A DNA stretch of 35,925 nucleotides. Origin: a virus. Every line of letters starts with the position of its first letter. The stretch's first letter is position 1. Position numbers and translations under genes: made by a program. The notes under the pieces were generated by a model. That model was given only the letters and a program-made list of their open reading frames with translations. It was not told where the DNA came from and did no database searches. Of the stretch, positions 6,610-31,379 are shown one piece after another. Where the stretch lies: the IMG/VR virus record IMGVR_UViG_3300017788_002263, positions 1-35,925 of that record; one strand, written 5' to 3'.

Positions 6610-7584
6610 TCAGAGCCTAGCCGCCAGAGCTTGGAGCGTGTCCAAGTCATCTATTTTGGCGATTAGATCCTTCGGTGAAATGTTTGCCGGGGCAGTTGTG
6701 CGTGCGTTACCGCTCGCGATTGGGGGTTTGGTTTGACGCGCAACGCTAGATGAGGGGGCCGGACGATTGGAATTGGGGGCAATCCCAACCGCGTTGGCCG
6801 CCATCTGGGTCAGCTTCCATGGGAGTTCAGGGTCGGAGATGAGGGGGTTCTGCGTGTCCTTTAGGGACTCATAGATCTCGTTCATCTTTGCAACCAGAGG
6901 GCTATTTTTGTCCGAGGCATCGGGGTAGAACTTCACCGCCTTGGCCTTGGCTTCGCTAACCTTCTGGCTGTATTCGACTTGGGCCTTGGACGCTTCCTCG
7001 GCGGCATACCGCTCGGATCTGCGAAGCTCAAGATTCAGGTTTTGAATCTCAAGCTCCAAGTCGGCCGCCTTATCAAACTCAAGGGCGCGGATGGCGTCAG
7101 CTTTTGCCTTGGCACGTTCCGTGATCTTGGTTTCGAGGGTGGCCGGATCCGCCAGCTTCGCCGTCTGTTCGGATTCGCCCTTTTTGACCATCTCCATCGC
7201 CTGGGCGAGTGACAGGTCGGGGTTTCTGGCGCGGATCTGAAGGGCTTTTCGCTCTTCCTCCGACCAGGATCCTACCCGCACTCGCTCTGGAAGAATATTA
7301 GCCTGCGGATCGGGAATTTCGTCCCTAACCTCCTCTGGCTTAACTTCTTCCGGTTGAGCCTCGGCCTTGGGGCTTTGCGCCTCATCCTCGGCCTTTGGTT
7401 CCGGCTGGGGGGCCGGATCCGTGGCGACAGGAGCCTCCTCGGCCTTTGGCTGCTCTACGGCAGTCGAAAGGTTTTGGATCAGCTCGTGATACGCCCGCTC
7501 ATCTAGCGTTGCTACGTCAGGTTTGTTGTTTTGGGTTTGAGTCGTTGGTTGCTCGGTTTGCACCGGAGTATTGGTTTCGCTCAT
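6610..7584 (-). CDS. Putative scaffold (capsid assembly) protein
   Basis: The 324-residue, strongly charged protein has an N-terminal disordered Pro/Glu/Lys/Ala region (residues about 30-100). A helical region with WSEEERKALQIRARNPDLSL follows, then a long Ala/Glu/Lys coiled coil (about 150-235: ERAKAKADAIRALEF, LELEIQNLNLELRRSERYA). The C-terminal tail is basic and Ser/Pro/Ala-rich and ends LQALAARL. Length, composition and position immediately upstream of the major capsid gene match phage scaffold proteins. The frame begins with TTG 7590, but ATG 7584 (MSETNTPVQTE) is the more likely start. I do not see a serine protease motif, so this is unlikely to be a fused prohead protease. Confidence 0.7.
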   Translation of the reverse strand: MSETNTPVQTEQPTTQTQNNKPDVATLDERAYHELIQNLSTAVEQPKAEEAPVATDPAPQPEPKAEDEAQSPKAEAQPEEVKPEEVRDEIPDPQANILPERVRVGSWSEEERKALQIRARNPDLSLAQAMEMVKKGESEQTAKLADPATLETKITERAKAKADAIRALEFDKAADLELEIQNLNLELRRSERYAAEEASKAQVEYSQKVSEAKAKAVKFYPDASDKNSPLVAKMNEIYESLKDTQNPLISDPELPWKLTQMAANAVGIAPNSNRPAPSSSVARQTKPPIASGNARTTAPANISPKDLIAKIDDLDTLQALAARL

Positions 7585-14480: not shown

Positions 14481-17400
14481 CTACCTAGAAGCTTTTTCTT
14501 GGGAAGCCTTATATTCCCGTCTGTGCCGCGCGGCTACCACCGCCTGCTTGGCCTCACGATAGAACCCAGAAATCTTGCGTTGAATGACATCCTTCCTGTC
14601 CTCCGAGACAAAGCCCTCGAGGTCGGCCTTGGACAGCACTCCGGGCTGGCTGGAATTCCCGTATAGGTATCCTTTGATTTTGGGCGCGGCCAGCTTCAGC
14701 ACCATGTCGTACTCATCGTTGGTTAGGGACACCCGCTTGCGGAGGTATGGGTCATCAAAGAACCGGTCAGGGCGTGAGAGATCCGGACTCCACACCTTGT
14801 CTGGGTGCTGCTGGTTGTAGTTATCGACAAACTTCTCAAAGTCGGTCTTTCCGTAAACCACTCCCCCTCGGCCGGGAAGTAGCCGGGTGATGGATCTCGT
14901 AACTGGCCCCGCGCCCTCGTATGGAGTCGGGTTAGGGATCTTCATTCCCTCAAAGGTTCTTCGGTCCGGTATGCCAAGCTCGTTCCCAAAGGCCGGGAAG
15001 ATGGAGAACAAGATGGCGTCCATACTCAGAGGCTCTGGGTTGTAAACGTCCTTTTCGTACTCCGGAACACCGCCAAGGGGCTGCTTAAACAGGTTGGGCA
15101 CCAGAATTGCGGAAAGCTTGTCTCTGAGAACCCTTTGCCATCCCACTCCCTGCCCGGGGAACAAGCTGATCAGGTCACGCCATTGCTTGCCGTAGGTTCT
15201 GGTGGCGGGTGCAAGGAAGTAATCCTTGAGGAAGTTAACTGCGGCGCCTGTCGCCAGATCCGGCGATTTGACGCCCTCCCTTAATGAGCGGGAGACGTTG
15301 ACGCTGCCAGAAAGCGCAGTCGCCAAGGGTTCTACTCGGCTGTAATCTACTGAATAATCAGGCACATCCGGATAACCAAAGTTCCTTGGTCGAATCAAAA
15401 TCTTAAACGGAGAGTTCCCGAATCGGGTCGTTCGCTGCCCTCCCGGGGACAAGGGATCCGGCGTTCCGGTGATAAGGAGCCACTTCTTGTCGTCATCATC
15501 ACCGCCCTCGCCTAGACTGTGAAGCAAGGCGGCAAAAACCATCGTACCGATAGAAAGGCTGGCCATTCTTTCGATGATGTCGTCGTACTCCTTGATGGGG
15601 GCATACCTTGTCCTCTTCCCGTCCACCTCGGTTGTTTTTGTGCTGTCCGCAAACCGGAACCCAAGATTCACCACGGCCGGGAGCGTGTAGGATAAACCCT
15701 CTCGGTAGATGTTGAATGGCGATTTGATCAGAACAAAGAATGACTGCATTAGGCGCACAATCCCCCTGAATGGCAAGGTCGTGGCGGCTGCTACCAGGTT
15801 GTCGGACTCCATCCGCGTGGCGAGGGAATCCAGCTGGGTATTGAGCTGTGCAAGTAGAGTCATGGCTCTCCCGCCGGCATCACCCACTGATTTAATCTTC
15901 TGGTCTTCGGGTTCTAGGTCTTGGGTAAAGGTTTCCTTGGTGGCGCGTCGGGCGGCAAGGATCCAGCTGGTGGATCCCACTCCCTCAATCTCCTTTTCAA
16001 TAAAGGAATCCAGTTCCGGCCCGTTTAGCCCGGCTGCTTTACCCAACCGATAGGCATGCGCCCCCACCGCGGTATAGGCTCGGAACATTTTTGAGAATTC
16101 GTCCATTGCCAAAAGGCCACGCAACGGCATCCGGACAATCCGTCCGAGCCTGCCGGGGATCCTGGTCCTCCGGGTTCTTCCGTATTTCTGTAGAAACGCC
16201 CCAAATCTGGTTTGCGGGTTATCGATGTCTTCCATGACTCCGGTGACGCTGTAATCGAAGAATCCGGCTTCCGTTGCCCACGCAAGCCTCGCCATGGTTG
16301 CAGCCCGCATCCAGGCCGGCGCGACGTGCTTCCAGATGTAACCGATTTCCCGACCAACTCCCTTGGCTAGTTCTGGGGTGGTCTTGTAGGCAATCCCCGG
16401 CCGGAATAACGGCACTTGCTGAGGGCTTAGCTGGTCAACTTCGACCTCCTGATGGAATCCGGCCTTGCCGAGGGCGTACACCATTATGCCCTGCATGCCG
16501 CGGTGTGCGCTGACGCTGATCGGTGAGAACGGCGTGGCAAAGACGTTGGCAAGCTGGGTGGCAACCCCGCTGAAGATGCTCGATACGTAAGACTCAAAGA
16601 TTGTTCCATCCAGCGTGGGTCGCCCGGCCTGAATCGCTCTAGCCAGAACCACGGCATGCTCTGGCTTGCGAAGGTCAAACAAGTTGCTTTTGCCTTTCCG
16701 GTCCTTTGATACCCATTGATACTCACCGCTTGGGGTAAGGGTCAGCCCAAGCATATTGTAAATTTCCTCCATCGCCTCCGCCTCGGATAGCGGCTGGTCG
16801 TCAGGGATCCGCTGGGCGAGGATCTGCCTCATCGAAGTGTCGTTTCTGGCGTTCTCAAGAAGTGCCTTGCGAAGCTGGTCGCGGGTCATCCCGGTCTGGG
16901 CAATCTGGCTAAATCTCCGCTTGGCTTCGGCCCGCATGGCATCCATGGCGGCCTTAATGTCGGCCAGCTTGATCTTGGTCTGCTTCGAGACGGAGACCGG
17001 ATCGTGCCCGATCATGATCAGCTCCACGGCCTCGCGCTCCCTTTGGGACAGGCGAACTTGGTCAAGCATCTGGGTGGCCGGCTTGCCGGTACGGATCTCG
17101 GAAAGCTCGGACTCCTTCATCAGCTGTTCCAGATTTGTGCCAAGCCCGGACAGAATGCGGTTCACCTCGGCAAGCCTCGTCTGGGCTTCTTGGGTCAACA
17201 CCTGTTCACGCGTGACCCTGTTCTGAAGGTCCGCGATCTGGTTCTGCATCGCCTCGATTTCGGCATTTCTCTGTTCCAGCACGGCCGAAAGATCCCGCAA
17301 GGCACGAGCGGAAGCCTCCGATTCGCCGGCCAACCCCTGCTGGGATTCGGTCAGGGCATTCCTTTGGCCGATTAAGTCCTCAAGCGTGGCCTGAAGGCTT

Positions 17401-20400
17401 CGGATGTCTTGGCGGGTCTGGGCTTCTGTTGGGTAATACTTCAGATCCATGACCCGGTTGCGTTCTGGCGCCACCATTACCGACATGAGGAATTCCGAGT
17501 TCCTTTGCGCCGGTGTCATCATTCTGTCGTAGCCCGCCCGCAAGGCCCGCCCCTGTTCGGAGCGAATCTCTCGGTACATGTACGCCATCGCGTACGCCTT
17601 ACCGAAGTCCGCGGCATTCCCGCTTACCAACGCGGTTTGGGCCAAGTCGGCCACCAGCTTCATCCCGGCCACGGTGGTTTCGGTGTTTAACGATTGCCCG
17701 GAAAGCACCGCCTCTTGGACGGCGAGCCTACCCTCTGGCGTGGAGAGCATCTGGGTGGCGGCTTCCTCAACTGCCGCATCCTGTTTGACCCCAAGCCCGC
17801 GCTCGAAACGCATCGCATCCATCGCATTGATGAGGTCGCGCTGTTCGGCGGTTTGACCAGGGTTTGCTAGGCTTCTGGCTTCGCCGCCGGTTTCGCCAGT
17901 CTTATAGACCCCGCCCATCGTTTTCATGCCGGACGGCTGAATCCGCAGCTTGCGATACATCTCCATCACTTCGGGGATGTCCTTACCAAGGTCGCCCAAC
18001 AGATCCGCCCGCATGGACATCAGTTCTTCTGGTGTCAGGGGCTTGGGCGTAAGGACCGGATTACCGGCCTCGTCGTAGTCAAGCCTTTGGGCAAACAGGC
18101 TGTCTTGCACCATGGATGGCCGCGTCTCTTGCTCCAAGGCGAACGGCTGAGTTGTCGGGTTCAGCGTGGTCTGGGTGGACATCAGCTGGCCCTCTGGCTG
18201 GTATCCGGACAGCTGGCTCTGGTTGGCGACAAACTCTAGTTGGCGAAGTCGCTTGTCGTTATAAGGCTGGCCGGCATCCCGCAGGGAGCGTAGTTGGTTT
18301 ATTTCGGAAAGTATTTTTCTGGCTCCGCTTGGCTGCTCTGGCCCAATCGTCTGGGCGTTAAGGGCAAACTCCATTTGGGGTGCGATATACTTGGCGGGCG
18401 GTGTCTCGATGACTGACGGCGTGAATGCTGTCGGGCGGTTCGGGGATCCAGCGTACCTCTCGGTGTCAAACAGGGCTTGCTGAACCCCGACACCCGGCAT
18501 CTTGTACTTGGTGGCAAACCTCTCAATTTCAGAGATGCGCTTACGCTGTTCGTCCGTTGGGGTCGGAATGTCGGTCAGTCTCTTGTATTCCAAGGCCATC
18601 GGGTTCTTTTCCCCGCCCTGCTCCGAAGGGGCTATGTCATCGCGGGTGTAGGACTTGACCACTTGCACCATCCCGCGGATCCCGGGCAACCCGGCCACGG
18701 CGGCCGATATGGTCTTGGTGACGGCCCTCCTTGGGTTGTCGATGCCCCTCGTGATCCAGCCTTCCCCATTCAGCCTTGGCCGGATTGAGTATGCCCCCTT
18801 GGTGGTAGTCACCAGGCCGCCCCTTGGCATGGCTTGAATGGTGTTCGTTACCTTGTCTTCTAGCTTGTCGCCGGTGATCCGCTGGGCAAATAGCTCGGCC
18901 TGGGTGGTCGGGGTTGCGGATCTGGACGCAGACTCCCTCTTTCCAACAAGGGTCTGATAGTCGGTGATCGGGATTGCCCCGATGTCCATAAGAGATCCCG
19001 CCGTAGTACCGACTAGGGTTCCGGCCGCCAGATTCCGAACCGCGCCCTTCATATCTCCCCGAAGGTTCAGAAGGTCTGATTCCAACTGGTCGAACCACTC
19101 CATCAGATAATCGTGAGGAGTTTTGGTTAGCCCCTTGGGGACATCCAGATTGGCTATCATGCCCAAGAACTCTGGCCTAGTCATGGTTTCAGCAGAAAAC
19201 TCATCCAAATTCTTGAAGCCATACAGTATCGACATGGCCTTCTTGGTCGGGTCTCCCACAACCCCAAGGATCCGCTGTTTGAATACCGGCTTATTTCCTC
19301 GAATCGTATAGGTCGAATATGCCGAAGGGGCTACGTTCTGTGTTCTCAGCTTTTCTAGCCCAGAAGGGGTAAGAATCAGCTTGCCGTCCGCTTCTACATC
19401 AAGCCCAACCAAGGATCCGGCTGGGCTGGACACAAAGAAGTCGTTGGTCGCCCCGTTCTTATTGACATAAGCATCCAAAGTGTCATTTGGCACTCCAGCC
19501 TTCCCCTGAAGCCCCAGTTCCGTGAAGTGGTCGTAGATCGCCTTTGAGTTGGATGCGTCGATATGGGCAGACATATACAGCCCGCCTGCGTAGCTCGCCC
19601 GGTGCATGGGCAGGGTGATGGAGTAAGAGGCGGTAAGACCTGACCCAAAGATGGCATTCTCAATCGGTTGCCCCGCATCGTCCTTCGCATACTTCAAGGC
19701 CCCCAGATAGGCCTTCACTAGGCTTTGCATTGCTGGGATCGCCCCTGTGGGGTTGTCGGCGTCCATGGGCTGCTTGCTGGCGTAAGTGGTTAGGGCATCG
19801 CGATACTTTGAGCCTGAAATCTCTTGGCCACGACGGGTTGGCCGGAAGTTATTGACGACCTCGCTGGCAATTAGCTGGGCAGTAAAGGCATGGATAAACT
19901 CATGCAGAATGACCCTTGGGCCAAGTTGCCCGGGGTGAAGCCGGATAATCCCCATTGTGAATGGGTCATACTTATCAGAGGCAAAATGCGAAGACTTTAT
20001 GGACTCATCAATCACCACATCAGTATTGGCGGCTCTGCCAAGGAACGATGCCGAATTGGCCTCAATACCACGGACCAACGCCTGTCCAAGCAGCCGGTAG
20101 TACGCCCTGATCGCCTTGTTGTTTTCATTTTCCGGTTCGGCAATTCCGCGGATCAGGCTGATGGCCGGTTGCGGGCCGGATTTCAGGGCCAGAATGGCTT
20201 GCCCCAGCTGGGTATTGGCAAACTGGCGCACCAGATTGGCGGTTTCCGCATCCCCCTCGGCATCGGTGGCGTAAATCCGCTGGGCATTGACGGACATGGG
20301 GCGAACCAACCCCGCCTCCATCGCCAGCCGCAACGCCTTGCTGACGGGCTTCTTGGGCTTGGAATTGGTGGCAAACAGGCTGTTGTCGCCGGCAAAATCC

Positions 20401-23400
20401 TGCAACGCCCGGAGCGCATCGTCGTACATCCGTTGAGCCATCTGCTTGTTGGGACGATCCTTGCCGTCCTCGCCCACGATTGGCGGTAATCCAAACTCGT
20501 CGGCAATCGCCTCGAAAGTCATCCCGCGGTTATGGGCCACAAACACTTGGGCCAAACGCGGATCTATGGTCTGGAATGCGGCCTCCATGTCGCTACGAAG
20601 TGCCTTGGTAAACTCAGTCTCCTCGATGGCCTTGGGCGTGATGATGTCCGGCCCCTCCTCCTCATTGACCGCCGTGGCTCTTCCGGCCAGCACTTCGGCC
20701 ACAGTTTCCTCATCCTCAAGGATCTGCATCCCTTGTTGTTCTGGCGGTTCGACCTCGAACTGGCCGAACTTCTGGTAAGAGGTGAGGACGCTGTTTTTGG
20801 CGGCCTCGACCATGTAGGAAAAAATCTTCTTGGGGATCCCGCCCTCGGGGGCTTCCGATCCCTCCATTTCGGCAAACTTGCCCGGGTCTTGCGTCCGCAT
20901 GACGGCAAGGGCTTTGATGGCCTTGAGAACCCCCGACACCGCCGAGTCTTCGACATACGAGGCATCCATATTGGGGAACATCCGCAGCACCATCCGCACG
21001 GCCGGCGATGGCCCGACGTTGCCATCCGAATCCAAGGTCTGCTGGGTGGCGATCCGGTAGTAGTTCCAAATCTCTGGCGTGATCTCGTCCCCGATCCGCT
21101 GGGCGTGGATCTGTACCGAGCGCGGGCCGGAATAGGCGTAGCCCTCGATAGCCGAACCAGCCGTATCGCTAATCCCAACCGACTTCGCAACCTCTGAGTA
21201 TGGCGTCCAGTTTGGGCCTTCATTGGCGGGCGCGGATTCCATGAAATTTGCCAAATTGTTCTGCGCCCGAAGAAGACCTGCAGAAGACTCGGATCCAAAT
21301 GGATATAAAACCGTATTTGGGCCAATCCGGCTCATCACGTACGCCTGGTTTAGCTCTGACATGGTGAGCGGCCCACGCACCTCTCCACCCTTATCTAGGT
21401 CAGCATAATAGTACCGCTGGGAGTTTTGGCTTGGCTTGCTTTGTGACCGCATCCGCTTGGCGATGTAGTTCCCAGCGTCAAATCCACCCATCTCCACCAC
21501 CACATACGGCCCCTCGGCCGACACCCTCGCGTTGGGAGCAATCTTTTCAAGCTCAGTCTTCACCCCATCCGGCACTCCGGACTCTTCCATCATCGCCATA
21601 TCCGCCAGCTGGTCTTCGACAAGACTGCTTACCGGGATGATGGACTTCAGGGAGTGGGGCGTTTCGATGGCTGTGGCTTCGGTGGTGGCGTATGACAGGG
21701 TAGCCCCGTCCGTGAACACCACTTCGGTTGCGTTATGGTGTCTGGTGATGGTGCTGTTGAGGTAATCCAAAACTTTCTCGGAATCGGAGCGTTGGATCGT
21801 CTCTTGAACGTTCAGAATATTGGAAAGCTTTCGGAGTTGGCTGAATTCGGCCTGATGGGGGACAACGATGCCGGTTGTCTCGCTCCCGTCCTGGTTGGTG
21901 AACCGCATGACGCGGTGGTTCAACTGCTGGCCGAACAGCCTCGTGGCCATGTCGGCCCCCACCAGAGGATTGCCAACAATGACGAAGTGATCCTGTTGCA
22001 TCGCCTTTTGACGCTCTCTGTCGTAAGCCTCGGATACGGCCTGATTCCGCCGGCGATTGTTCATCTTGTTTACGAAGTCTTTTTGGCCTTCTTCCGTGGC
22101 CACCGCTCCTTCTGCCGTCATGGCGTCGATGTCCTCGGTTACGGCCAAGGCTTCGGCAAATGCGTCAATGACCTCTTTCTCGGTTTGGGCGTTCTCCGTC
22201 TTTTCGGATACGTAGGAAAGGATCTCGCGCGTACGTACCGGCGACATCTCGATGATTGTGTTCCCGTCGTAATAGAGACTATTTAGCGTCTTGCCGTCGG
22301 AGAACTTGCGCTTCACCCGGAAGAATCCCGGCCGGTATCCCGCCCGATCCATGGCAAACGACATATACTTTTCACGTAGTCTGAACGGATGGTTCTCCCA
22401 GGCCTTGGCGGCCGCATAGGATTCGGTTTGCCTGAAAGTGCGTAAAAGCGCGGCCTCGGCATCCAGCCCGCCAACCGCGCCGTCCTCCAGCAGGGGCATC
22501 TCTACCCCAAGCTCATTCTGTTCCAGCGGGTTGTTGTTAAACGCCGCCCGGGCTGAGGCCAGCCGTGATAGCGGATTGGCCGACAGAGGAACCGGCATCA
22601 GGTGATTGAACCCTGCGCTCTGGATCAGCATTCGCTGGGAAGCAACCACGTGGGGGTATTTCAGGTTGAGTCTCAACCCTGAAACAAATACCGGCACTTG
22701 GGTATCGTTGATATGATACCAGTAGCTTCCGCCCACTTTCTCGGCCGCATCCGCCACGGCCGCTTGCGCCACCGCCATCTTGCGGGTGATGGCCTGGATA
22801 AGGGAACTCTTGGCCTTCGGGTCAAGGCGGGATCTGGCGGTGATGTAATTTACCCTGTCTTGGAGATACTTTTCGGCCGATTCGTTGTACTTCTGCACCA
22901 GTTGGGCCGTGTCGGCCTTCACCCTATCAATGTCCCTGACCAGCTGCTCAGAGGTCGGCGGCGGGGTCGGGTTGGTGAATCTGTACCGGCGTAGCTGGGT
23001 CGGTTGGGCGGTTCCGATGTCCGGCTCACCCTCCTTGCGTGGGGCGTAAGGGGCCATCCCGGGCATGTCGTCCACCAGCACGGCCTTGTAGTCCATCTTT
23101 TCGGACGTCAGGTTGTAGCGTCCGGCCATCTTCTCGGTTTCTACGATCTCGTTGTATTCATCCCGTACTTGCTCGGAAATTTCAGAGTAGATGTCGAGCG
23201 GCATGATGATGAGCATGTGTTCAAACCTTCGGAACACGTCGCCGTTGCCGGCTCCCTTCATCAAATTCGCCCGGATCTCCTCCTCGTTGGATCCTGGGAA
23301 ATACTCGTTATGACGGCTCTGGAACTCTTGGCGGAAGGTTTCGTCCCTTGCCAACACATTCGCCATCGCAAGGTCGCCGTAGGCATTGTGCATGTCCTCG

Positions 23401-26400
23401 CCAAAGGTTTCCGACATATCCAGCCGCTGCCCTCCGGTGCTTGAGGCTCCGAGGCGGGACATCTTCTTGGCCGTCAGGGCCATGATCCGTTTCTCGGCCG
23501 GCAACTCCTCGGCATAGGCCATATAAAGGTGAGGGGCGGTCAGCTGTCCGGTCCGGTTCACGCGGAAAGCCACCTGCACGGTGTCCACCACGTTGGGGGA
23601 TGGCTGCAAAAGGAAGAACACCCGGTCTTTTTGTGACGAGAACTTGGGTGAGTTATGGGCGTTGATTCCGGTGGATCCCGAGCGGGACACGGCAATCACG
23701 TTTATGTCGTCCATGTTGTTGAACATGGAAAGCGAGGCCATGCGGTCCTGGTCGAGGTCGGTCCTTTTCTCCCTTGTTCCATCCGGCATCACGGTTGCCG
23801 AGCGTCCGGAAATCTCCACGCTGGGGATCTGCACCGATTCCAACTGCTGACGCAGGCTGTCCATTGGGGAAATTCCCAGCCTCCCCAGAACATCCCTTGA
23901 GGATTCGATCATGCTCTTGGCGTCCGCAATCTGTTGAAGAACTCGATCTGCTTCCGCCATCGCGCCCGGGTACTCCTCTTGGGTGCGGTTCAGATCCAGC
24001 CTTTGCCGGAAAAGAGTTGTCTGCCTGCCCTTGGGGCCAACCTTGGCCGTGATGGTCACGTACTTCAGCTTGTCGGTGTAGCGGGCGAGGGCGTCGGCAA
24101 ACGAGGCGTTCTTGGGGTCAGTTTCTAGTGAAACATCGTCCAGCAACTCCTGTACGGCCGCCTCGCCGGTGGCATCGGAAGCCACAAACACCTTCTTGCC
24201 CTGGTCGACCAAGGTTTTGATCTGCTTGGAGATTTCAGGAATCTTTGAGGATAAGACCATTAAATTGGCAATATTGTGGAACTGGGACTTCATCGGATAG
24301 GGATCCACCTTCACCGTCAGGGTCTCTGCCAGTTCTGGCTTGTCCTTGACTAGTTCATTGGCTTTCGCTTTCGCCAGAACAAGCAACGCACCCTTCAGCT
24401 GTTTCATAAACGGCCCGGCTTGGACTTGCTTCAATTCGCCGGCGATTTCATTGGCCGTGTTATTGACCTCGGCAATTTGCGGTCCGGTGCGAAGTGCCAA
24501 AGGAGTGAACGGAACAGGCTTGCCATCGTGGGTAAGACCGCGCTGATAGCGGATATATTCGCCAGCCGAGACAAGGCCTCGGTTCATCAGCTCTAACAGG
24601 GGGTTGGCAAACTTCTTGAGTAGCTGGTTCAGCCGGCGCACAGACGGAATGGCCCGATTGACCGATGTGAATGGGAAATACAACCGCATCGCCTCAAGGT
24701 TTTTGATGGCTGTTCCGCTTGAGAACGCCACGCCCTTGGCTTTCTTGAGGATCCCGCGGGCGACATTGGACGACAGCGAGTCGCCGGTTCCCTTGTGGGC
24801 CTCGTCAATGATAAAGACGGCGTTGGGGGCGAGGGCATTAAGCACAGGGTTCACGTCTTTGAGTCGCGCCTGCTCCCAGGTGGTCATTACCATCGTCTTC
24901 CCGGCGGGCAGCTTCTTGCTGGAAATAATGGAATCAAATTGCGACTTGGGATTCTTGCCCTTGTTGGTCAAAACATTCCCATCACCCATCACAGACTCAA
25001 AGTCCTGGTCGGTGATAAACGGATCCATCTTAAAGCCGAGATCGCGGAAGTCATCCATTAGGGTCGGATACAGCGTCCGCGAGTTGGCCGTGAAAAAGAT
25101 CGGGGTTTGACCACGCAGATGGGCGGCGTAAAGCAGGGCCGCACAGACTCGCCCCTTTCCAATCCCCATCTCGTGACCAATGATGTTGGCCTTGCCTGAA
25201 TCCATGCGATCCAGGGCAGCCGCGATTGTCTCGACTTGCTCCTTGTTGAATCTGGACCCGGCCTTGGGGTTTACGACCTTGTAAAGCTCGGACGGGTTGG
25301 AGAACCCAAGCGCGTTGGACACGTAGCTCTCGAGGCCGCCACGCTCACGATCAATTCTCTCAAGGTTTCTGCGGATCTCGTCCGCAATCCCGACAGGAGC
25401 AAATGTTTTTAGGCTTACTCCGCTGCCCTGAATGACCGGAACCCAAGGAACCTGGGTTTCTAGCCCGTCGCCTAGAGTTCGTTCAGCGTCATTGACGCCA
25501 GCAGTTCGCCCAGCTTCGACTCCCGGTCCTCTCCTTTGGAGCGTGCGAATAGCGCCAAGATTTGGTTGTGCCCCTCCACCGCTCCGCACGCCTGCCGGAA
25601 CAGCATTGTCAGCCACTCCTTGGTTCTCTCCGGATCCTCCGTCAGGTCGTTGATCCACGGATCCTGGTACAGGGCGTCCGCGTCCGTCTTCCACATTCTG
25701 AAGCTGTCCGGGTTGTCCCGCTGCCACTTCACCAGCCGGGGGAACGCCTCCTCCGCTGCCTGTTCGCTGTATTCCTTCACTTGCTCCGGGTTGAGTTCCT
25801 TCTTCACGATTAGAGTCTATCCCTCCTTCTTGGTTGTCGTCAACTCGCTGGGCCATAAGCTCCTGCGGGTCAATTGTTTGTGCTTTAATGTCTGGCATTT
25901 GGTCAAGTTGGTTGACCTTTGCTGTGTCGGTTGCCCATCTTTCCCACGAATCAAGCTCTGCCTGTAAATCCGTGATTTTCTGGGCAACGATTGTTTCGGC
26001 GTTTTCCCCGGTTCCAACCGGGATCCCGCTTTCAGCCAGTATTTTCGCCCTCTGCCCGCTGCTCAGCTTCTTATAGTTTACAAACGCGCTGAGCTGTTCC
26101 TTGAGGTCTTTTTGTTTTTTAGCAGCTTTTTTTGCCCTTTGCTTCATTAGCTCAAAGGCAGAGTCGTCACCCCCAAAAAGATCCCCCTGCGATTCAGAGG
26201 GCCCGCGGTCAGCAAATTTCGCAACCATCCCAGCAATAAAGTTTTTAAGCTCCGCTTGGGTTGTCCTTTCAGAGGTAATCAGGGCCAAGGCTTGCCGCTG
26301 AATCCCCTCGTTTACCGTTCCCGCAGACTTGGGAGCACCCGAAGCGATAATAAATGCCATCATGGGGTCAACCTTCCCCATCAAGACTCCGCTATAAATA

Positions 26401-29400
26401 TCCTCCGTGGCCTCGTTCGCGATTGTGAAGCCCTGCTGCCCCTTGCCGGCCGCCCGCATCAGTCCCCTCTTTTCGGCTTCCTCCATGCTGATCCCGGATT
26501 TTCGAAAATAATAAGCAAAATCCTCAATATCCCCCTGTCCGTCACGAATATTGGCTTCGGCATCTAAGGTTTCAGCTTCAGATTGCCCAAATCCCTCGGA
26601 TTCTTTTTTAATCTCGGTGGGGATAGTGGTTAGATTGTTTCTCTTGGCTAGATCCAGCCGGTGGCGGCCTGTAATAATTTCAAAAACACCGTCGTTTCTT
26701 AGCCAAACAACGACTGGGTTCCTTGGTGTGGGGCGGTATTCACCAGAAAGAGGCTCGACCACGCCAGTGTCTTTATTGGATTTTCTCTTGAACTGCCTTA
26801 TCTTGTCGTTAACGACGATCTTGTTAATTGGGAAATCGACAACTTGGCCCGACGGGATTGCCTTAAGCTCTGAGTCAGTCCTCTTGGGGACGATCTTTAC
26901 CCTCGGCGGTTCTGGCGGTGCAATAGTTCCAACTGCCGGACTTTCTTGAGCAGCTTGGCCGATAACGGGCGGCTCAACTGGACCTTGCGGGACTTCTGGC
27001 GTGGCTTGCGGAACATTTCCTCCTCCTTCTTCCGGCGGTGCGCGGGGCTGGGTTTCGGGTGCTTGTGGCACATTTGGGCCTCTTTGTGCCATCTCCGGCC
27101 TTGGCTGGGATGGCGTGTCGGAAAGCACGTCGTCGATCTCGGAAAGCAAGTCGTTCAGATCCTCGGCCAGCTGCGGGTTGGCCTTGACTAGGCTGTCTTT
27201 AATGGAAAACAAGGCGCGGTAAACCTTGCGGAGATAGTCCGAGATAACCTTGATAATTGTCCGCGAACCGCCGCTCGCTTGCGCGGCCGTGCGAAGAAAG
27301 TTGCGGGCCTCCGTTTGGGGCTGCCCGTAGGTCTTCAGCATTCGGAGCATTTCCGACATAAAGAGGGGCATAGCCTTTACATTCTTTGCCCCAGACATCC
27401 CGACCCGGGTCATGTATTGCTGAACATCGACAATTGTTTTGAATTGGGATTTTACCTCGCCACCGACCATCGCATCTTCTGCGGCCGCTAGGTTTGCCCC
27501 ATCGAGGTTTTTCCTAGGCAGATAAAGGTTGGCAGCTGCCACCACGGACTGCTCCACCGCCTTGTCCTGTCTTGCCACCGCAAATATGCGGGAAAGCATG
27601 TTGGCCCGCTGTTGCGACCAATGTTGGCGGTAGTTGTCCAGGCCTTTCCGCTTTGCGTCCAAAGCACCTTCAGCCAGATCCCCGAGGTGGGCTATTTCCT
27701 CCCTGACATACCGGTTGTTGGCCTCGGGATCCGTGTTCTCCATCCTCATGAAAGACTGTTTGTTTAGGCTGATTCGAAGGGTCTTGTTGTCCGGCTCGAA
27801 ATTCACCGAGGATTCCGCCCCGTCGGAAACAAATCTTACATCCAACCCCTTCGACCCAATCGCCGTCACCAAGTTCCTCATTTTTGACTCAACCGATGCC
27901 CATCGCTCGTCGGGAGTCTTGCCTTCAAGCCTCGCCATCAGGGCCGGGGATCCGGTTTTGGCGCTGGCTTCGGCAATCTGTTGCGGAGTCTTTAGCCTGG
28001 GCTGGTCAACGACCCTCGGTTTTCCGGTGGGTTGCTGTTCCGGCTGGGGTGGAGCGACCTGTTCCGGCGGCTCGCCTCCCCCGCCTTCCGCCTCTGTCGC
28101 TTGCATCGCTTCGGCCGCCCTTTCGAGCGAAACTTTCAATAATTCGGATAAAGTTGGCGTCTGTGAAAAGATATCCTGTTTAATGAACTCCGAGGGGATC
28201 CTCAACCCGTTGGAATCGGTCTGGATGATGGGCATCCCCCGGTATTTGGCTTTCAGCTCCTCCTGTGTGAGGGTGTCCGACTCGAACATTGCCTTGGCGG
28301 CGATAAGCCCGGCGGACTGCCGGTCCAGTCCTCCGTCCACCGGATCGGTTGCCAAGGATCCGATTTCTCTGGCAACTTCCAGCCGTAGCCGCGTCTCGTT
28401 CTGGATCATGGCGGCCAAGTTGGCTCTTTCGGCGTAAATCCTTGCCATCCCGACCAAACGCTCGTTTTGCTCGCCGCTGATGGCCTGTCGAATCCCTTCG
28501 GTTATCTTGGGGCGTAATCTTGGGGGCGGCGCGCCTTTGGCTATGTCTTGGTCAATGGACTGACCCAGCTCGGCCAGCCGGCGTGAGGGCGCGCCCTTAA
28601 TGCTGTCGGCAATCCCCTTCAAGAACTGCGTTTGCTGCTCATCAAGATCCCCGATGACCGGCCCGAATGACTCGGCGGTGGCCGGATCCAGTATCTGCTC
28701 GGTCAGGGAGTCGGCCCAGGTTGACCAACCATTCAAGGGAATATCGTCGGTTGCGGATTTCATGTCATCCGCCTGCTTCTTCAAGCCTCCCGCCGTCATG
28801 GCGTTTTGCGCTCCGGCAACAATGACTGTTCCGCCCCCAATCGCCGCAGTTCCGGCACCACCCGCCCACATGGCGATGTAGACGCTCTTGAGAACGTCCT
28901 GACTTAAGGGGCGGTCGGGGTCGATCTTTTTGCCGTTGATCAGTTCGCCGATGTGCTTGGCGATGGCGTTAGACCAAAACGTCTGCAGCCCCTCCTCCAG
29001 CCCCTCTGTGGCACTTCCGCCCACCAGCGCGAGACCAGCCTTGGCAAACATTCCGCGGAGACTCTGCGCGCTCATGGTCTTCATCTTTTCAAGGAAGGCC
29101 TTCCCCGCTATTTTGCCGAGACCTAGCGTAACTATGTTGCCGGCCTGCTCGAATCCGGCGACCGGGATGGCTTCGGCAAGGGCGACCACGTGATCCGGGT
29201 CTTTTATCCCAGCCTGGATCTGGCTTTGGATGGCCTCGTCATACGCCGGGCCGAAGGTTGTCAGTAGCCCAATCCCCGGGCTGGCGATGGTGGCTCCTAC
29301 ATAAACCGGCAGTTCGCTAAGAACCTTGACCACTTGCCCCACATCGCTCTCCCGGTATTCCGTGCTGGTCGGGGCAAGCCCCATGAACTCCTCGTTGCGG

Positions 29401-31379
29401 ATGGCTTCTTCGTTGGCCTTGGCAGAAGCCGCGGCGCTTTCAAAGAACTCGGCCGATCTCTTGGTTAATTCACCCGAAAACAGCCTGTCGGATAGCTGAA
29501 GTGCTGCGGTGGCAATTGGCCAACGATCAAGCCCCGGCGTACCCTGAACTGTTCCCGCCAGCCCCTTGACAAACCCCGCCAGCCCGCGTTTCTTAATGTC
29601 GTTGGCCGCCGCAAGGTAAATGCCTGACGCAAACTTTTGGTTAAGCTCGAACGCCCCGCGCGCGGCTTGGCGGCCGGTATCCTTGCTGAATAGTTTGTCA
29701 AACCCGCCCTTGAACCAGCTTAATGGGTTTTGGGGCGGCTGACTCGGAGTGCTGGGCTGAGTTGGCTGACCAGGTTGTGGCGGCTGGCCTTCCCCGGGGT
29801 CGATAAACAGAGGCCCTGTGAACGGCTTGCCATCCTCGAGGTTTCTACGTTGCTTGGCTTTTTCGACTTTTGTGGCCGTATCTTGCTCAAGCTTGGTTAG
29901 CCTAGTCTGAAGCTCTTTCTGAATCCTTTGTTCGTTTTCCGTGACAAACTGGCCTTGGACTTTTGCGCTTTCTTGGGCAACGGAAGCCTGTCTGCCAATC
30001 TTCCCAAGCTGGTCGTCCAAGACCTCGATGGCATCGGCATACCCTTGTGCCCGCGCCCGGGTGTTTAACCCGGAACCCTTTTTATTTGCGTCTGCGGCGT
30101 CTGCATCATCCAGTAGCTTGTTGTAGACAGTGGCCAGCCGATTTCTGCGTCCGGCCAGGGTTGAATAACTGATGGACGTGTCCGCCGCCTGCTCGATGAA
30201 TGGCCGTAGGAATTCAGAGGCCTTTTCCTTTGCAAGCCGCCCCTCGGCCTCAATTCTGGCCTTCTCCTTTTGCGAGGCCCGCGTTTCGTAAATAGCCTGC
30301 GGGGTAAGGGTCGCGTCCTTGAACACCTCGGAAAGCGGTAAGACCGGCTTCTGGATGTTGGTTAACCCCTCGCGGATGGCTCCAAGCAGGGGATCCTTTT
30401 CGATGTCCTCCTGTTTGGCTCCTGACTGCAAAAGCTGCTGAAGCCGGTTGTCGTAGATCGACTCACCCTCATCCAGAGACATCTGGGACTGAAGCTCAAC
30501 CTGAAGCGCGCGGTTCCGAATCCTTGCTTGGTTCTTTTCGGCCAGCCTTGCATTGAGTTCAGCAATCTTCTGGTCGCGGGACTGGCCGATTCTCGTGGCC
30601 GCCCCCTGTCTCGTCTTGGCGTCTGCCTTATCCCCAAGCTCTGCCCGCAAGACGGGGTCCATCTTGTCCCCATCCGGCTGCCAATCGGGGATGGGGGTTT
30701 GCGTGAGCGCATCAATCTCAGACTTGAGCGTCTCTGACTCCACATCCAACTGCTGGCCCCTTGCGTCCAGAACTGTTTTGGCAGAACCAAGCTCGTATTG
30801 CCTGTTCTTTCTGACCGTCTCCTTGGCTAGCGTTGAAAGCCCCTGGTCGGAGACGCCCTGTAAATCAAAGGCACTTCCGATGTCCTCAGCCTTCGTGGCC
30901 GCAAACGGCTGGTTGGGGTCGGAGACTCCAGAGTCCTGTTCGCTTGTATATACTCTGTATATCCGTGACGGGTTGGGGAAGTTGGGGTCGTTGGCGTCGC
31001 CCGCCCGATACCTTATGTTCTGCCTTTTGCGTGGCTTGACCTTGCCAGCCTCGTCAATCTGCCTTTTTTCTTCTGTAATGGGATCCTGAAACTCCGATGT
31101 TCCAAACTTAACAGATCTTCCGAACTCGTTGTTTGGTACATAAGTTGGCCGGCGGAACCCGCTTTCATCCTTTTCTGACTGGATCCCGGCCTCTTCAAAG
31201 GCCACCTCGGTTCCGTCGTTGTACGCCCGAACGGCGTCTTTGACTACGCCCTGCTGATATTGCTCAACCGCTCTCGCCTCGCGCCTTGTCCTTGGCACAT
31301 AAGGCTCTGGCTCTGGTCCCCCGAAATTGTCCTCGGGCTTCCCGTCGATTCCAGAGCCGCCAAAATCAGGTAAGCCCAT
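14481..31379 (-). CDS. Giant polyvalent virion/ejection protein with ParB, SNF2/strawberry-notch-like helicase and zincin domains
   Basis: An uninterrupted 5632-residue frame starts at ATG 31379 (GAGGTGA 7 bases upstream). Visible order: coiled coil about 180-515; Pro/Gln linker 526-553; hydrophobic segments 677-860 with a Gly/Glu-rich helix (SATEGLEEGLQTFWSNAIA); degenerate zincin EEIAH at 1227-1231; ParB-like domain about 1500-1620 (GRHRLDLAK at 1571); low-complexity linker 1842-1970; SF2 helicase 2040-2640; a helicase-associated domain near 3128-3300; GYF_2-like domain 3322-3362; HTH about 3606-3670; zincin with HEFIH at 3826; coiled coil 4650-4765; a second HTH 4774-4821; C-terminal phage polyvalent module 4900-5632. 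By analogy with polyvalent proteins and the N4 virion RNA polymerase (about 3500 residues), it is probably packaged and injected to protect or process incoming DNA. It is the largest gene here by far. Proteolytic maturation is possible. Confidence 0.9.
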   Translation of the reverse strand: MGLPDFGGSGIDGKPEDNFGGPEPEPYVPRTRREARAVEQYQQGVVKDAVRAYNDGTEVAFEEAGIQSEKDESGFRRPTYVPNNEFGRSVKFGTSEFQDPITEEKRQIDEAGKVKPRKRQNIRYRAGDANDPNFPNPSRIYRVYTSEQDSGVSDPNQPFAATKAEDIGSAFDLQGVSDQGLSTLAKETVRKNRQYELGSAKTVLDARGQQLDVESETLKSEIDALTQTPIPDWQPDGDKMDPVLRAELGDKADAKTRQGAATRIGQSRDQKIAELNARLAEKNQARIRNRALQVELQSQMSLDEGESIYDNRLQQLLQSGAKQEDIEKDPLLGAIREGLTNIQKPVLPLSEVFKDATLTPQAIYETRASQKEKARIEAEGRLAKEKASEFLRPFIEQAADTSISYSTLAGRRNRLATVYNKLLDDADAADANKKGSGLNTRARAQGYADAIEVLDDQLGKIGRQASVAQESAKVQGQFVTENEQRIQKELQTRLTKLEQDTATKVEKAKQRRNLEDGKPFTGPLFIDPGEGQPPQPGQPTQPSTPSQPPQNPLSWFKGGFDKLFSKDTGRQAARGAFELNQKFASGIYLAAANDIKKRGLAGFVKGLAGTVQGTPGLDRWPIATAALQLSDRLFSGELTKRSAEFFESAAASAKANEEAIRNEEFMGLAPTSTEYRESDVGQVVKVLSELPVYVGATIASPGIGLLTTFGPAYDEAIQSQIQAGIKDPDHVVALAEAIPVAGFEQAGNIVTLGLGKIAGKAFLEKMKTMSAQSLRGMFAKAGLALVGGSATEGLEEGLQTFWSNAIAKHIGELINGKKIDPDRPLSQDVLKSVYIAMWAGGAGTAAIGGGTVIVAGAQNAMTAGGLKKQADDMKSATDDIPLNGWSTWADSLTEQILDPATAESFGPVIGDLDEQQTQFLKGIADSIKGAPSRRLAELGQSIDQDIAKGAPPPRLRPKITEGIRQAISGEQNERLVGMARIYAERANLAAMIQNETRLRLEVAREIGSLATDPVDGGLDRQSAGLIAAKAMFESDTLTQEELKAKYRGMPIIQTDSNGLRIPSEFIKQDIFSQTPTLSELLKVSLERAAEAMQATEAEGGGGEPPEQVAPPQPEQQPTGKPRVVDQPRLKTPQQIAEASAKTGSPALMARLEGKTPDERWASVESKMRNLVTAIGSKGLDVRFVSDGAESSVNFEPDNKTLRISLNKQSFMRMENTDPEANNRYVREEIAHLGDLAEGALDAKRKGLDNYRQHWSQQRANMLSRIFAVARQDKAVEQSVVAAANLYLPRKNLDGANLAAAEDAMVGGEVKSQFKTIVDVQQYMTRVGMSGAKNVKAMPLFMSEMLRMLKTYGQPQTEARNFLRTAAQASGGSRTIIKVISDYLRKVYRALFSIKDSLVKANPQLAEDLNDLLSEIDDVLSDTPSQPRPEMAQRGPNVPQAPETQPRAPPEEGGGNVPQATPEVPQGPVEPPVIGQAAQESPAVGTIAPPEPPRVKIVPKRTDSELKAIPSGQVVDFPINKIVVNDKIRQFKRKSNKDTGVVEPLSGEYRPTPRNPVVVWLRNDGVFEIITGRHRLDLAKRNNLTTIPTEIKKESEGFGQSEAETLDAEANIRDGQGDIEDFAYYFRKSGISMEEAEKRGLMRAAGKGQQGFTIANEATEDIYSGVLMGKVDPMMAFIIASGAPKSAGTVNEGIQRQALALITSERTTQAELKNFIAGMVAKFADRGPSESQGDLFGGDDSAFELMKQRAKKAAKKQKDLKEQLSAFVNYKKLSSGQRAKILAESGIPVGTGENAETIVAQKITDLQAELDSWERWATDTAKVNQLDQMPDIKAQTIDPQELMAQRVDDNQEGGIDSNREEGTQPGASEGIQRTGSGGGVPPAGEVAAGQPGQLQNVEDGRGRPVPGSVDQRPDGGSGENQGVADNAVPAGVRSGGGAQPNLGAIRTLQRRGPGVEAGRTAGVNDAERTLGDGLETQVPWVPVIQGSGVSLKTFAPVGIADEIRRNLERIDRERGGLESYVSNALGFSNPSELYKVVNPKAGSRFNKEQVETIAAALDRMDSGKANIIGHEMGIGKGRVCAALLYAAHLRGQTPIFFTANSRTLYPTLMDDFRDLGFKMDPFITDQDFESVMGDGNVLTNKGKNPKSQFDSIISSKKLPAGKTMVMTTWEQARLKDVNPVLNALAPNAVFIIDEAHKGTGDSLSSNVARGILKKAKGVAFSSGTAIKNLEAMRLYFPFTSVNRAIPSVRRLNQLLKKFANPLLELMNRGLVSAGEYIRYQRGLTHDGKPVPFTPLALRTGPQIAEVNNTANEIAGELKQVQAGPFMKQLKGALLVLAKAKANELVKDKPELAETLTVKVDPYPMKSQFHNIANLMVLSSKIPEISKQIKTLVDQGKKVFVASDATGEAAVQELLDDVSLETDPKNASFADALARYTDKLKYVTITAKVGPKGRQTTLFRQRLDLNRTQEEYPGAMAEADRVLQQIADAKSMIESSRDVLGRLGISPMDSLRQQLESVQIPSVEISGRSATVMPDGTREKRTDLDQDRMASLSMFNNMDDINVIAVSRSGSTGINAHNSPKFSSQKDRVFFLLQPSPNVVDTVQVAFRVNRTGQLTAPHLYMAYAEELPAEKRIMALTAKKMSRLGASSTGGQRLDMSETFGEDMHNAYGDLAMANVLARDETFRQEFQSRHNEYFPGSNEEEIRANLMKGAGNGDVFRRFEHMLIIMPLDIYSEISEQVRDEYNEIVETEKMAGRYNLTSEKMDYKAVLVDDMPGMAPYAPRKEGEPDIGTAQPTQLRRYRFTNPTPPPTSEQLVRDIDRVKADTAQLVQKYNESAEKYLQDRVNYITARSRLDPKAKSSLIQAITRKMAVAQAAVADAAEKVGGSYWYHINDTQVPVFVSGLRLNLKYPHVVASQRMLIQSAGFNHLMPVPLSANPLSRLASARAAFNNNPLEQNELGVEMPLLEDGAVGGLDAEAALLRTFRQTESYAAAKAWENHPFRLREKYMSFAMDRAGYRPGFFRVKRKFSDGKTLNSLYYDGNTIIEMSPVRTREILSYVSEKTENAQTEKEVIDAFAEALAVTEDIDAMTAEGAVATEEGQKDFVNKMNNRRRNQAVSEAYDRERQKAMQQDHFVIVGNPLVGADMATRLFGQQLNHRVMRFTNQDGSETTGIVVPHQAEFSQLRKLSNILNVQETIQRSDSEKVLDYLNSTITRHHNATEVVFTDGATLSYATTEATAIETPHSLKSIIPVSSLVEDQLADMAMMEESGVPDGVKTELEKIAPNARVSAEGPYVVVEMGGFDAGNYIAKRMRSQSKPSQNSQRYYYADLDKGGEVRGPLTMSELNQAYVMSRIGPNTVLYPFGSESSAGLLRAQNNLANFMESAPANEGPNWTPYSEVAKSVGISDTAGSAIEGYAYSGPRSVQIHAQRIGDEITPEIWNYYRIATQQTLDSDGNVGPSPAVRMVLRMFPNMDASYVEDSAVSGVLKAIKALAVMRTQDPGKFAEMEGSEAPEGGIPKKIFSYMVEAAKNSVLTSYQKFGQFEVEPPEQQGMQILEDEETVAEVLAGRATAVNEEEGPDIITPKAIEETEFTKALRSDMEAAFQTIDPRLAQVFVAHNRGMTFEAIADEFGLPPIVGEDGKDRPNKQMAQRMYDDALRALQDFAGDNSLFATNSKPKKPVSKALRLAMEAGLVRPMSVNAQRIYATDAEGDAETANLVRQFANTQLGQAILALKSGPQPAISLIRGIAEPENENNKAIRAYYRLLGQALVRGIEANSASFLGRAANTDVVIDESIKSSHFASDKYDPFTMGIIRLHPGQLGPRVILHEFIHAFTAQLIASEVVNNFRPTRRGQEISGSKYRDALTTYASKQPMDADNPTGAIPAMQSLVKAYLGALKYAKDDAGQPIENAIFGSGLTASYSITLPMHRASYAGGLYMSAHIDASNSKAIYDHFTELGLQGKAGVPNDTLDAYVNKNGATNDFFVSSPAGSLVGLDVEADGKLILTPSGLEKLRTQNVAPSAYSTYTIRGNKPVFKQRILGVVGDPTKKAMSILYGFKNLDEFSAETMTRPEFLGMIANLDVPKGLTKTPHDYLMEWFDQLESDLLNLRGDMKGAVRNLAAGTLVGTTAGSLMDIGAIPITDYQTLVGKRESASRSATPTTQAELFAQRITGDKLEDKVTNTIQAMPRGGLVTTTKGAYSIRPRLNGEGWITRGIDNPRRAVTKTISAAVAGLPGIRGMVQVVKSYTRDDIAPSEQGGEKNPMALEYKRLTDIPTPTDEQRKRISEIERFATKYKMPGVGVQQALFDTERYAGSPNRPTAFTPSVIETPPAKYIAPQMEFALNAQTIGPEQPSGARKILSEINQLRSLRDAGQPYNDKRLRQLEFVANQSQLSGYQPEGQLMSTQTTLNPTTQPFALEQETRPSMVQDSLFAQRLDYDEAGNPVLTPKPLTPEELMSMRADLLGDLGKDIPEVMEMYRKLRIQPSGMKTMGGVYKTGETGGEARSLANPGQTAEQRDLINAMDAMRFERGLGVKQDAAVEEAATQMLSTPEGRLAVQEAVLSGQSLNTETTVAGMKLVADLAQTALVSGNAADFGKAYAMAYMYREIRSEQGRALRAGYDRMMTPAQRNSEFLMSVMVAPERNRVMDLKYYPTEAQTRQDIRSLQATLEDLIGQRNALTESQQGLAGESEASARALRDLSAVLEQRNAEIEAMQNQIADLQNRVTREQVLTQEAQTRLAEVNRILSGLGTNLEQLMKESELSEIRTGKPATQMLDQVRLSQREREAVELIMIGHDPVSVSKQTKIKLADIKAAMDAMRAEAKRRFSQIAQTGMTRDQLRKALLENARNDTSMRQILAQRIPDDQPLSEAEAMEEIYNMLGLTLTPSGEYQWVSKDRKGKSNLFDLRKPEHAVVLARAIQAGRPTLDGTIFESYVSSIFSGVATQLANVFATPFSPISVSAHRGMQGIMVYALGKAGFHQEVEVDQLSPQQVPLFRPGIAYKTTPELAKGVGREIGYIWKHVAPAWMRAATMARLAWATEAGFFDYSVTGVMEDIDNPQTRFGAFLQKYGRTRRTRIPGRLGRIVRMPLRGLLAMDEFSKMFRAYTAVGAHAYRLGKAAGLNGPELDSFIEKEIEGVGSTSWILAARRATKETFTQDLEPEDQKIKSVGDAGGRAMTLLAQLNTQLDSLATRMESDNLVAAATTLPFRGIVRLMQSFFVLIKSPFNIYREGLSYTLPAVVNLGFRFADSTKTTEVDGKRTRYAPIKEYDDIIERMASLSIGTMVFAALLHSLGEGGDDDDKKWLLITGTPDPLSPGGQRTTRFGNSPFKILIRPRNFGYPDVPDYSVDYSRVEPLATALSGSVNVSRSLREGVKSPDLATGAAVNFLKDYFLAPATRTYGKQWRDLISLFPGQGVGWQRVLRDKLSAILVPNLFKQPLGGVPEYEKDVYNPEPLSMDAILFSIFPAFGNELGIPDRRTFEGMKIPNPTPYEGAGPVTRSITRLLPGRGGVVYGKTDFEKFVDNYNQQHPDKVWSPDLSRPDRFFDDPYLRKRVSLTNDEYDMVLKLAAPKIKGYLYGNSSQPGVLSKADLEGFVSEDRKDVIQRKISGFYREAKQAVVAARHRREYKASQEKASR
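14484..16682 (-). other. Giant protein, C-terminal polyvalent-protein module
   Basis: Residues about 4900-5632. The marks are YVSSIFSGVATQLANVFATP (4930), LLAMDEFSKMFRAYTAVGAH (5085), LPFRGIVRLMQSFFVLIKSP (5200) and YSVDYSRVEPLATALSG (about 5341). The same series (a 'Y-x-S-x-L-x-G-P-x-T' start, 'DEFFK', 'PF-x-R-x-x-x-N' and 'Y-S-R-x-E-P-L') closes many phage polyvalent proteins. It is likely a virion-docking or membrane segment. Confidence 0.65.
19155..20102 (-). other. Giant protein, intact zincin metalloprotease domain with insertion
   Basis: Residues about 3760-4075. RVILHEFIHAFTAQL carries HExxH at 3826-3830. The downstream NLDEFSAE (4057-4064) supplies the late acidic residues seen in phage polyvalent zincins. 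About 225 residues separate the two, more than I would expect, and the spacer contains strand-rich sequence that looks like an inserted domain. Confidence 0.7.
21294..21416 (-). other. Giant protein, GYF_2-like domain
   Basis: Residues about 3322-3362. RYYYADLDKGGEVRGPLTMS, then LNQAYVMSRIGPNTVLYPFG, fits the bacterial GYF_2 pattern 'W/Y-Y-x-x-x-G-x-x-x-G-P-x-[ST]-x-x-E-L ... G-x-I-x-P-x-T-x-[VL]'. GYF folds usually bind proline-rich peptides. The giant's own Pro/Gln linker (526-553) is one possible ligand, which is speculation. Confidence 0.55.
23460..25262 (-). other. Giant protein, strawberry-notch-like SF2 helicase/ATPase
   Basis: Residues about 2040-2640. A Q-like motif (RFNKEQVETIAAAL) precedes motif I (GHEMGIGKGR, Lys2075), motif II DEAH (2192-2195) and motif III SGTA (2221-2224). 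Motif V is AVSRSGSTGINAHN (Gly2568 in GSTG) and motif VI is QVAFRVNRTGQL (about 2602-2612). The GxGKGR loop and the context of FSSGTAIKNLEAMRLY resemble strawberry-notch-type helicases. All key ATPase residues are present, so it should be active. Confidence 0.8.
25472..25807 (-). CDS. Nested 111-residue gene overprinted by the giant gene's linker
   Basis: This frame lies on the same strand, one base out of phase with the giant gene, from GTG 25807 to a TAG at 25472. The product (MKKELNPEQVKEYSEQAAEE ... KLGELLASMTLNEL) is balanced, helical and acidic, with four Trp. Its codons end in G or C almost throughout, like the rest of this genome's genes. In the same interval the giant frame reads a Gly/Gln/Pro/Glu/Arg low-complexity linker with many GGA, CGA and GAA codons. 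The nested frame is therefore the better coding candidate. AAGGAGGG lies about 14 bases before the GTG, longer than ideal, and an in-frame TAG stands just upstream. No family is recognised. Alternative: two compensating sequence errors hide a continuous giant frame. Confidence 0.65.
   Translation of the reverse strand: MKKELNPEQVKEYSEQAAEEAFPRLVKWQRDNPDSFRMWKTDADALYQDPWINDLTEDPERTKEWLTMLFRQACGAVEGHNQILALFARSKGEDRESKLGELLASMTLNEL
26520..26882 (-). other. Giant protein, ParB-like domain
   Basis: Residues about 1500-1620. The segment GQVVDFPINKIVVND opens the fold. VWLRNDGVFEIITGRHRLDL carries the ParB/Srx signature G-R-H-R, and AEANIRDGQGDIEDFAYYFR follows, as in ParB-like proteins with 'E-N-x-x-R'. 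In phage polyvalent proteins this domain is a frequent partner of helicases. Nuclease or CTPase activity cannot be decided from the sequence. Confidence 0.7.
28680..31379 (-). other. Giant protein, N-terminal coiled-coil and membrane-active region
   Basis: Residues 1-900. A charged, disordered start is followed by long helices, a Pro/Gln linker, then Gly/Ala/Val-rich stretches (LPVYVGATIASPGIGLLTTF at about 686, MWAGGAGTAAIGGGTVIVAG near 835). Such segments occur in phage ejection proteins that cross the host membrane. This is inference from composition. Confidence 0.5.

Follow-up and report, generated by a model that had tools for sequence, protein, structure and literature searches.

A gene nested in a giant polyvalent-type gene

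The window, that is, the whole 35,925-nt stretch of an IMG/VR virus record to which all coordinates refer, carries on its minus strand a giant open reading frame (ORF) of polyvalent type (14481..31379; 5632 aa). Entirely within this ORF, and in the +1 frame relative to it, lies a second ORF on the same strand (25472..25807), which starts with GTG and encodes 111 aa. The nested protein is acidic (net charge −7), contains four tryptophans and is predicted to be helical; its coordinates, length and tryptophan content agree with the original prediction, which had called this ORF a gene hidden in a linker of the giant. Over the same bases (25472..25811, minus strand), the giant is read in a different frame as a linker rich in Gly, Gln, Pro and Arg, as had been described, and also in Glu, in which stops are avoided and amino acids are weakly constrained. 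A Shine–Dalgarno (SD)-like AAGGAGG (25822..25828, minus strand) is located 14 nt 5′ of the GTG, a spacing that is longer than usual, and an in-frame TAG (25817..25819, minus strand) stands four codons 5′ of the GTG, which makes unbroken reading into the nest from upstream in the same frame impossible.

Downstream, the nest adjoins the first ATPase half of an SF2/Strawberry-notch-type helicase (24744..25250, minus strand; ResIII, with AAA_34 under the cut-off), and a profile match to Helicase_C_4, the C-terminal half of Strawberry-notch-type helicases, is found at 23112..23819 (minus strand). With ResIII and Helicase_C_4 both above the cut-off, the giant contains a helicase of the Strawberry-notch/SWI2/SNF2 type. 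Weak matches to PHROGs upstream of the nest indicate a ParB-like domain (26604..26864, minus strand), and this stretch has homologues in the giants of Vibrio phage 1.211 and Shewanella phage X14. A motif search detected no adenine methyltransferase motif NPP[FYW] in the window's giant. Elsewhere in the window, a 360-aa ORF (5019-6101) overlaps the major head protein gene (4980-6575) in antisense orientation.

Selection on the two frames

An open nested frame is no evidence by itself. When codons were resampled with the amino acids of the giant fixed, the nested frame was open in 19% of the trials for the window and in 8–10% for its relatives, and the same kind of control gave p ≤ 0.05 at only 26 of 123 other loci. 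Openness was thus rejected as coding evidence, because the residues of the giant linker make +1 stops rare; since long +1 ORFs are mostly non-significant alone, our claims rest on conservation and not on ORF length.

The window was compared with five IMG/VR relatives (L001-L005, the same as G001-G005), with a nested identity of 87–93%. Both frames are open over the nest in all five, without a stop in either frame and without an indel in any of the six sequences. A nested frame broken while the giant frame is conserved was sought and seen in none of the relatives (0/5), and no indel that would place the segment in the giant frame occurs across the six contigs. The AAGGAGG, the GTG and the upstream in-frame TAG are kept in 6/6 sequences.

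The +1 geometry provides a clean test. The first position of a giant codon is the third of a nested codon, and the second position of a nested codon is the third, or wobble, position of a giant codon; coding by the giant alone should therefore place changes at nested position 2, whereas coding by the nest should place them at nested position 3. Within the 336 nt of the nest, variable sites at giant codon positions 1/2/3 number 38/10/8, against 226/142/566 and 150/64/713 in the flanks. Nested wobble sites vary while the giant wobble is nearly frozen: it is variable in 7.1% of the nest codons compared with 69.8% elsewhere, the lowest 112-codon giant-wobble window outside the nest is 48% variable, and the nest contains all three of the lowest giant-wobble windows of the whole giant gene. 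After these, giant-wobble variation is lowest (27% versus 70%) at 21228-21317, close to where an unlisted TTG ORF (20564-21325, minus strand) begins; this segment could be regulatory or a second overlapping element. Synonymous and non-synonymous changes were also compared in both frames, as the original prediction had proposed, by four-class counting. Nested-nonsynonymous changes are suppressed, with substitution rates (nested, giant class) of 0.0042 for N,N and 0.0035 for N,S compared with 0.0205 for S,N; that is, they are about 5–6 times rarer than nested-synonymous changes, regardless of their effect in the giant frame.

In the giant frame, the linker amino acids drift and stop avoidance persists. 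T is present in 0 of 172 cells in which it would create a giant stop, compared with 40 of 270 elsewhere, and in random synonymous versions with the nested protein given, the probability of an open giant frame is 0.0016 for the window and ≤0.0002 for the relatives, figures that are strong but, with cells non-independent across six related sequences, are not exact probabilities. Purifying selection on the nested protein is thus evident from the position pattern and the class rates, and stop avoidance shows that the host frame across the nest is selected too, with weak amino-acid constraint. Taken together, the nested frame is under selection as a protein, and the giant frame at least for staying open. 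On these sequence grounds, 25472-25807 (minus strand) is almost certainly a real gene, and the giant frame across it is very probably maintained as well.

A family of nested genes in one slot before the helicase

A helicase scan yielded 80 viral loci, to which 80 bacterial loci were added; family totals are counted over 155 loci. In a codon log-odds scan of the viral loci and reference giants, the strongest out-of-frame coding signals mostly corresponded to a +1 ORF right before the helicase, and a nested ORF in this same slot and same +1 frame is present in most of the fused methyltransferase–helicase proteins examined. Its carriers are phages (including a Bacteroides phage), cyanobacterial conjugative elements, Desulfovibrio and alphaproteobacteria. 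The slot usually lies about 80–550 nt upstream of the helicase and sometimes 1–2 kb. In L044, L045 and others, the nest precedes the helicase by 500–1900 nt and other sequence fills the gap; the slot tolerates insertions. In Bacteroides phage BS-TP4, the nested gene (L015:7621-7977) lies within a 5,395-residue giant and is unannotated in GenBank PQ571277. P1 darB was tried as a nest carrier and rejected, as it has no nested ORF with a coding signal.

Thirty-nine viral nested proteins were joined by BLAST (E ≤ 1e-3), and the family motifs are an N-terminal W.P, a central PLT...Y...L..R..R(L/M) and a C-terminal TLE.FL..LYP. An HMM built from viral nests only returned 45 matches among 12,063 six-frame ORFs of the 80 bacterial loci, all 45 of them in frame +1 and 44 within a helicase-containing ORF; after iteration, the family comprised 96 members in the 155 loci. 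Resampling codons with the giant residues fixed lowered the median HMM score from 71.5 to 0.1 bits; because the observed set had partly trained the HMM used in that test, the run of the viral HMM against bacterial ORFs serves as the independent test. Read in the giant frame or in +2, the nest DNA gave no family HMM score.

The dual-coding substitution pattern is also present in independent pairs of related loci. Among 18 cyanobacterial loci, positional entropy at nested positions 1/2/3 is 0.66/0.60/1.02, and that of the giant wobble in the flanks is 1.04–1.24; in the pairs and the 18 loci alike, the giant wobble varies least or nearly least of the three positions within the nest, yet most of all in the flanks. 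An SD sequence of at least 5 nt precedes the first ATG in 26 of 60 nests (43%), compared with a background of about 7%. AlphaFold2 prediction with 27 nests gave two short strands and a helical bundle (pLDDT 92, pTM 0.87), and comparison of the family with Pfam, PHROG and PDB/Foldseek gave zero convincing matches. The net charge has a median of −9 and is negative in 87 of 93 members. Taken together, these data leave little doubt that the slot family is real.

Within one cyanobacterial order, a six-frame genome search that used the nested protein as the query, independently of the helicase, was positive in 26 of 65 genomes. At each of the 31 loci from the genome searches (30 cyanobacterial and 1 from the source alphaproteobacterium), the nest stands in the +1 frame of an ORF that overlaps it. 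This ORF continues beyond the nest into a strict helicase motif at 24 loci and lacks the exact motif at the others, and L212 has a host frame that is short or broken. Among 289 genomes of the class of L115, the family was found solely in the source genome itself, so the gene is patchy in that class. A stand-alone homologue, as envisaged in the original prediction, did not turn up in phage and plasmid records, in the 155 loci or in more than 350 whole genomes (six-frame, helicase-independent). The sole in-frame case is L147 (Leptolyngbya SIOISBB; helicase match at 7001), in which the nest is fused to the helicase. The methyltransferase ORF of L147, in another frame, ends downstream of the nest start, which resembles the outcome of a one-base indel or a naturally split form. 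In L148, the nest-bearing enzyme has a coupling protein, an M23 peptidase and a Prim-Pol in its neighbourhood, a conjugative context. The coupling protein and the enzyme of this cyanobacterial conjugative element (L148:1659-14627) weakly match MADS mad8 and mad2 (PADLOC).

The window's nest agrees with the slot family in place, +1 frame, size and charge: it extends from −416 to −81 relative to the start of the helicase match, and many family members occupy about −500 to −90. By sequence, a link to the family was obtained with none of the family HMM (3.8 bits, a level reached by 12% of shuffles), a subfamily HMM, BLAST and hhalign (E 0.07–0.34), and on sequence grounds we therefore do not count the window's nest among the family members. 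Its only homologues among phages, plasmids, genome_contigs, Pfam, PHROGs, NCBIfam and PDB sequences are its own five relatives; its AlphaFold2 model is weak (pLDDT 69, from an input of six near-identical sequences), and Foldseek against BFVD and PDB returned zero matches. The L075-L099 cluster is one example of slot occupants that escape the HMM but connect to the family by profile–profile comparison (E 1e-4) and have the dual-coding pattern, so the slot holds proteins that have diverged beyond HMM detection. That such HMM-negative occupants proved homologous, and that the window's nest shares the slot, the +1 frame and a similar length and charge, speaks against a convergent origin by linker overprinting or capture of a small gene, with no descent from the family. 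A convergent origin would fit the undetectable sequence similarity, the ParB-like upstream module with no methyltransferase, and the nearest sister helicase clade (L038-L042), which has neither nest nor linker; the missing slot in that clade is compatible both with loss there and with independent gain in the window lineage, and because the helicase tree was made by a quick method and has many open forks, gain and loss counts are not used as proof. We lean towards descent from the slot family, with the window's nest as a fast-diverged occupant, and regard convergence as having an appreciable but minority chance.

Origin, function and relation to known systems

The codon usage of the nested frame in the window correlates with that of the host gene at r = 0.60 and that of the giant frame at r = 0.07, in line with the codon contrast first described, and the nested frame is the more host-like in 71 of 83 family loci (r values compared by size in both cases). 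Codon usage has been set out as a criterion for dating overlapping frames, with the caveat that long selection can give the younger frame genome-like codons (Pavesi review, PMC8227390). By this measure, the nested frame is probably the older and the giant linker the de novo part, overprinted on top; given that caveat, codon usage supports the age order and does not prove it. The overprinting origin that had been suggested for the linker is thus upheld as far as its younger appearance goes, whereas the fusion of two genes is a hypothesis. The nest does lie at a junction of two modules, as helicase homology with L038-L042 starts right at the nest end, but the proposed union of ParB with helicase is specific to the window lineage, and at the other slots the upstream module is an adenine methyltransferase. 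The further idea that such fusions explain how giant proteins grow overreaches, because the same slot is present in nest-bearing enzymes of conjugative elements of about 2,200 residues. Relatives with three separate genes (methyltransferase, small gene and helicase) were absent from the sets searched, and the separate methyltransferase and helicase genes of Bacteroidota have no recognised homologue of the nest and no obvious small gene between them. Many Strawberry-notch helicases of Bacteroidota (L174-L193) are separate genes, several of them beside a methyltransferase-type gene, without a recognised nest. A tentative history would have an old family that exists almost only in overlap, a linker made by reading across it, the enzymes fused and the window's nest as a diverged member; the hosts of this old family would be the methyltransferase–helicase and ParB–helicase proteins used on incoming DNA by phages and conjugative elements.

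We propose that translation of the nested protein starts internally on the giant's own mRNA, by means of the AAGGAGG and the GTG, and that the nest fills a slot just N-terminal to the Strawberry-notch-type SWI2/SNF2 helicase of polyvalent proteins. The giant would cross the nest as a disordered linker on which the chief demand is to contain no stop, and a small acidic protein would be made in cis with a DNA-modifying or translocating enzyme, possibly as its subunit or regulator. A real nested gene with an internal start, occupying the slot and perhaps partnering the enzyme, is the best overall explanation of the sequence data, with a probability of roughly 0.7.

Three other readings of the nest were rejected on the upstream TAG, the three-base period and the six concordant contigs. 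A +1 frameshift from the giant frame, with no internal start, could yield a defined truncated product of the ParB part plus the nest, as the nest closes with a stop; however, the TAG four codons 5′ of the GTG, kept in 6/6 sequences, would confine the shift to the nest or the last four codons before it, and distant members have an SD and ATG at normal spacing, which makes frameshifting very improbable. An assembly or sequencing artefact, in which two compensating indels displace an ordinary stretch of the giant from its frame, might be suspected in a metagenomic contig with an odd-looking, low-complexity giant-frame sequence, but its chance is negligible: the six contigs agree with zero indels, stops close off the nested frame at either end, and the same arrangement recurs in isolate and metagenome assemblies from several phyla. 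Just as remote is a conserved RNA or DNA element that encodes no protein and freezes the giant wobble, which is compatible with the lower overall substitution in the nest but at odds with the strict three-base period in the nested frame, where changes are mostly synonymous, and with the conservation of distant nests at the protein level.

As for function, the context suggests that the nested protein may be a partner or regulator of the host enzyme, to which we give slightly less than even odds. The family protein is conserved, acidic, soluble-looking and tied to one enzyme type in phages and conjugative elements; because conjugative elements make no virion and yet conserve the nest, a virion-only role in capsid assembly is argued against. 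The main rival casts the nested protein as an anti-defence effector in its own right, such as an Ocr-like acidic DNA mimic, which has only its mRNA in common with the methyltransferase–helicase. Strong acidity, in the family as in the window, would suit such an effector, as would host proteins of the polyvalent anti-restriction type (PMC5512222) and a rapid sequence divergence that fits an arms race. We nevertheless consider it unlikely, as Foldseek gave zero matches to known inhibitors and the nest keeps a constant position and frame beside one helicase across phyla, in phages and conjugative elements; this constant place indicates a function tied to that enzyme.

In targeted full-text literature searches, no account of a nested gene of this kind came up, and the family is likely to be previously undescribed; as few subscription papers were covered by these searches, novelty is likely rather than certain. 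Gene finders tend to drop genes nested in longer ones, which accounts for the family having no recognisable Pfam or PHROG entry despite its wide occurrence.

Same-strand overlapping genes with an internal start on the mRNA of the longer gene are familiar from phages, as in phiX174 and lambda Rz/Rz1. The slot nests share this internal-start layout, but they are conserved in one slot of one host-protein type in phages and conjugative elements, and no lysis-type or membrane features are seen in their sequence. The host proteins resemble the polyvalent dyad LPD36–MTase–SWI2/SNF2 of the DarB type (Iyer et al. 2017, PMC5512222): both combine an adenine methyltransferase (NPP[FYW]) with a SWI2/SNF2 helicase, here of the Strawberry-notch type, and both occur in phages and conjugative elements, whereas the giant of the window carries a ParB-like domain and is without the NPP[FYW] motif. 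A term search of that paper turned up no overlapping gene. The nested protein is a defined partner candidate for polyvalent methyltransferase–helicase proteins. The closest parallel in layout to the linker is the polymerase/surface overlap of hepatitis B virus, in which the polymerase spacer overlaps a smaller gene read in a different frame, and for which codon usage led to the hypothesis that an intervening gene was overprinted, fusing the two genes that flanked it (Pavesi, PMC8227390). In both cases, the linker of a multidomain protein runs across a smaller gene in another frame; the slot nests differ in lying wholly inside the host gene, in having no sequence relationship to the viral overlap and in recurring at scores of loci in prokaryotic mobile elements of several phyla. 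The slot family thereby offers a repeated natural case of multidomain proteins built by a linker read across another gene.
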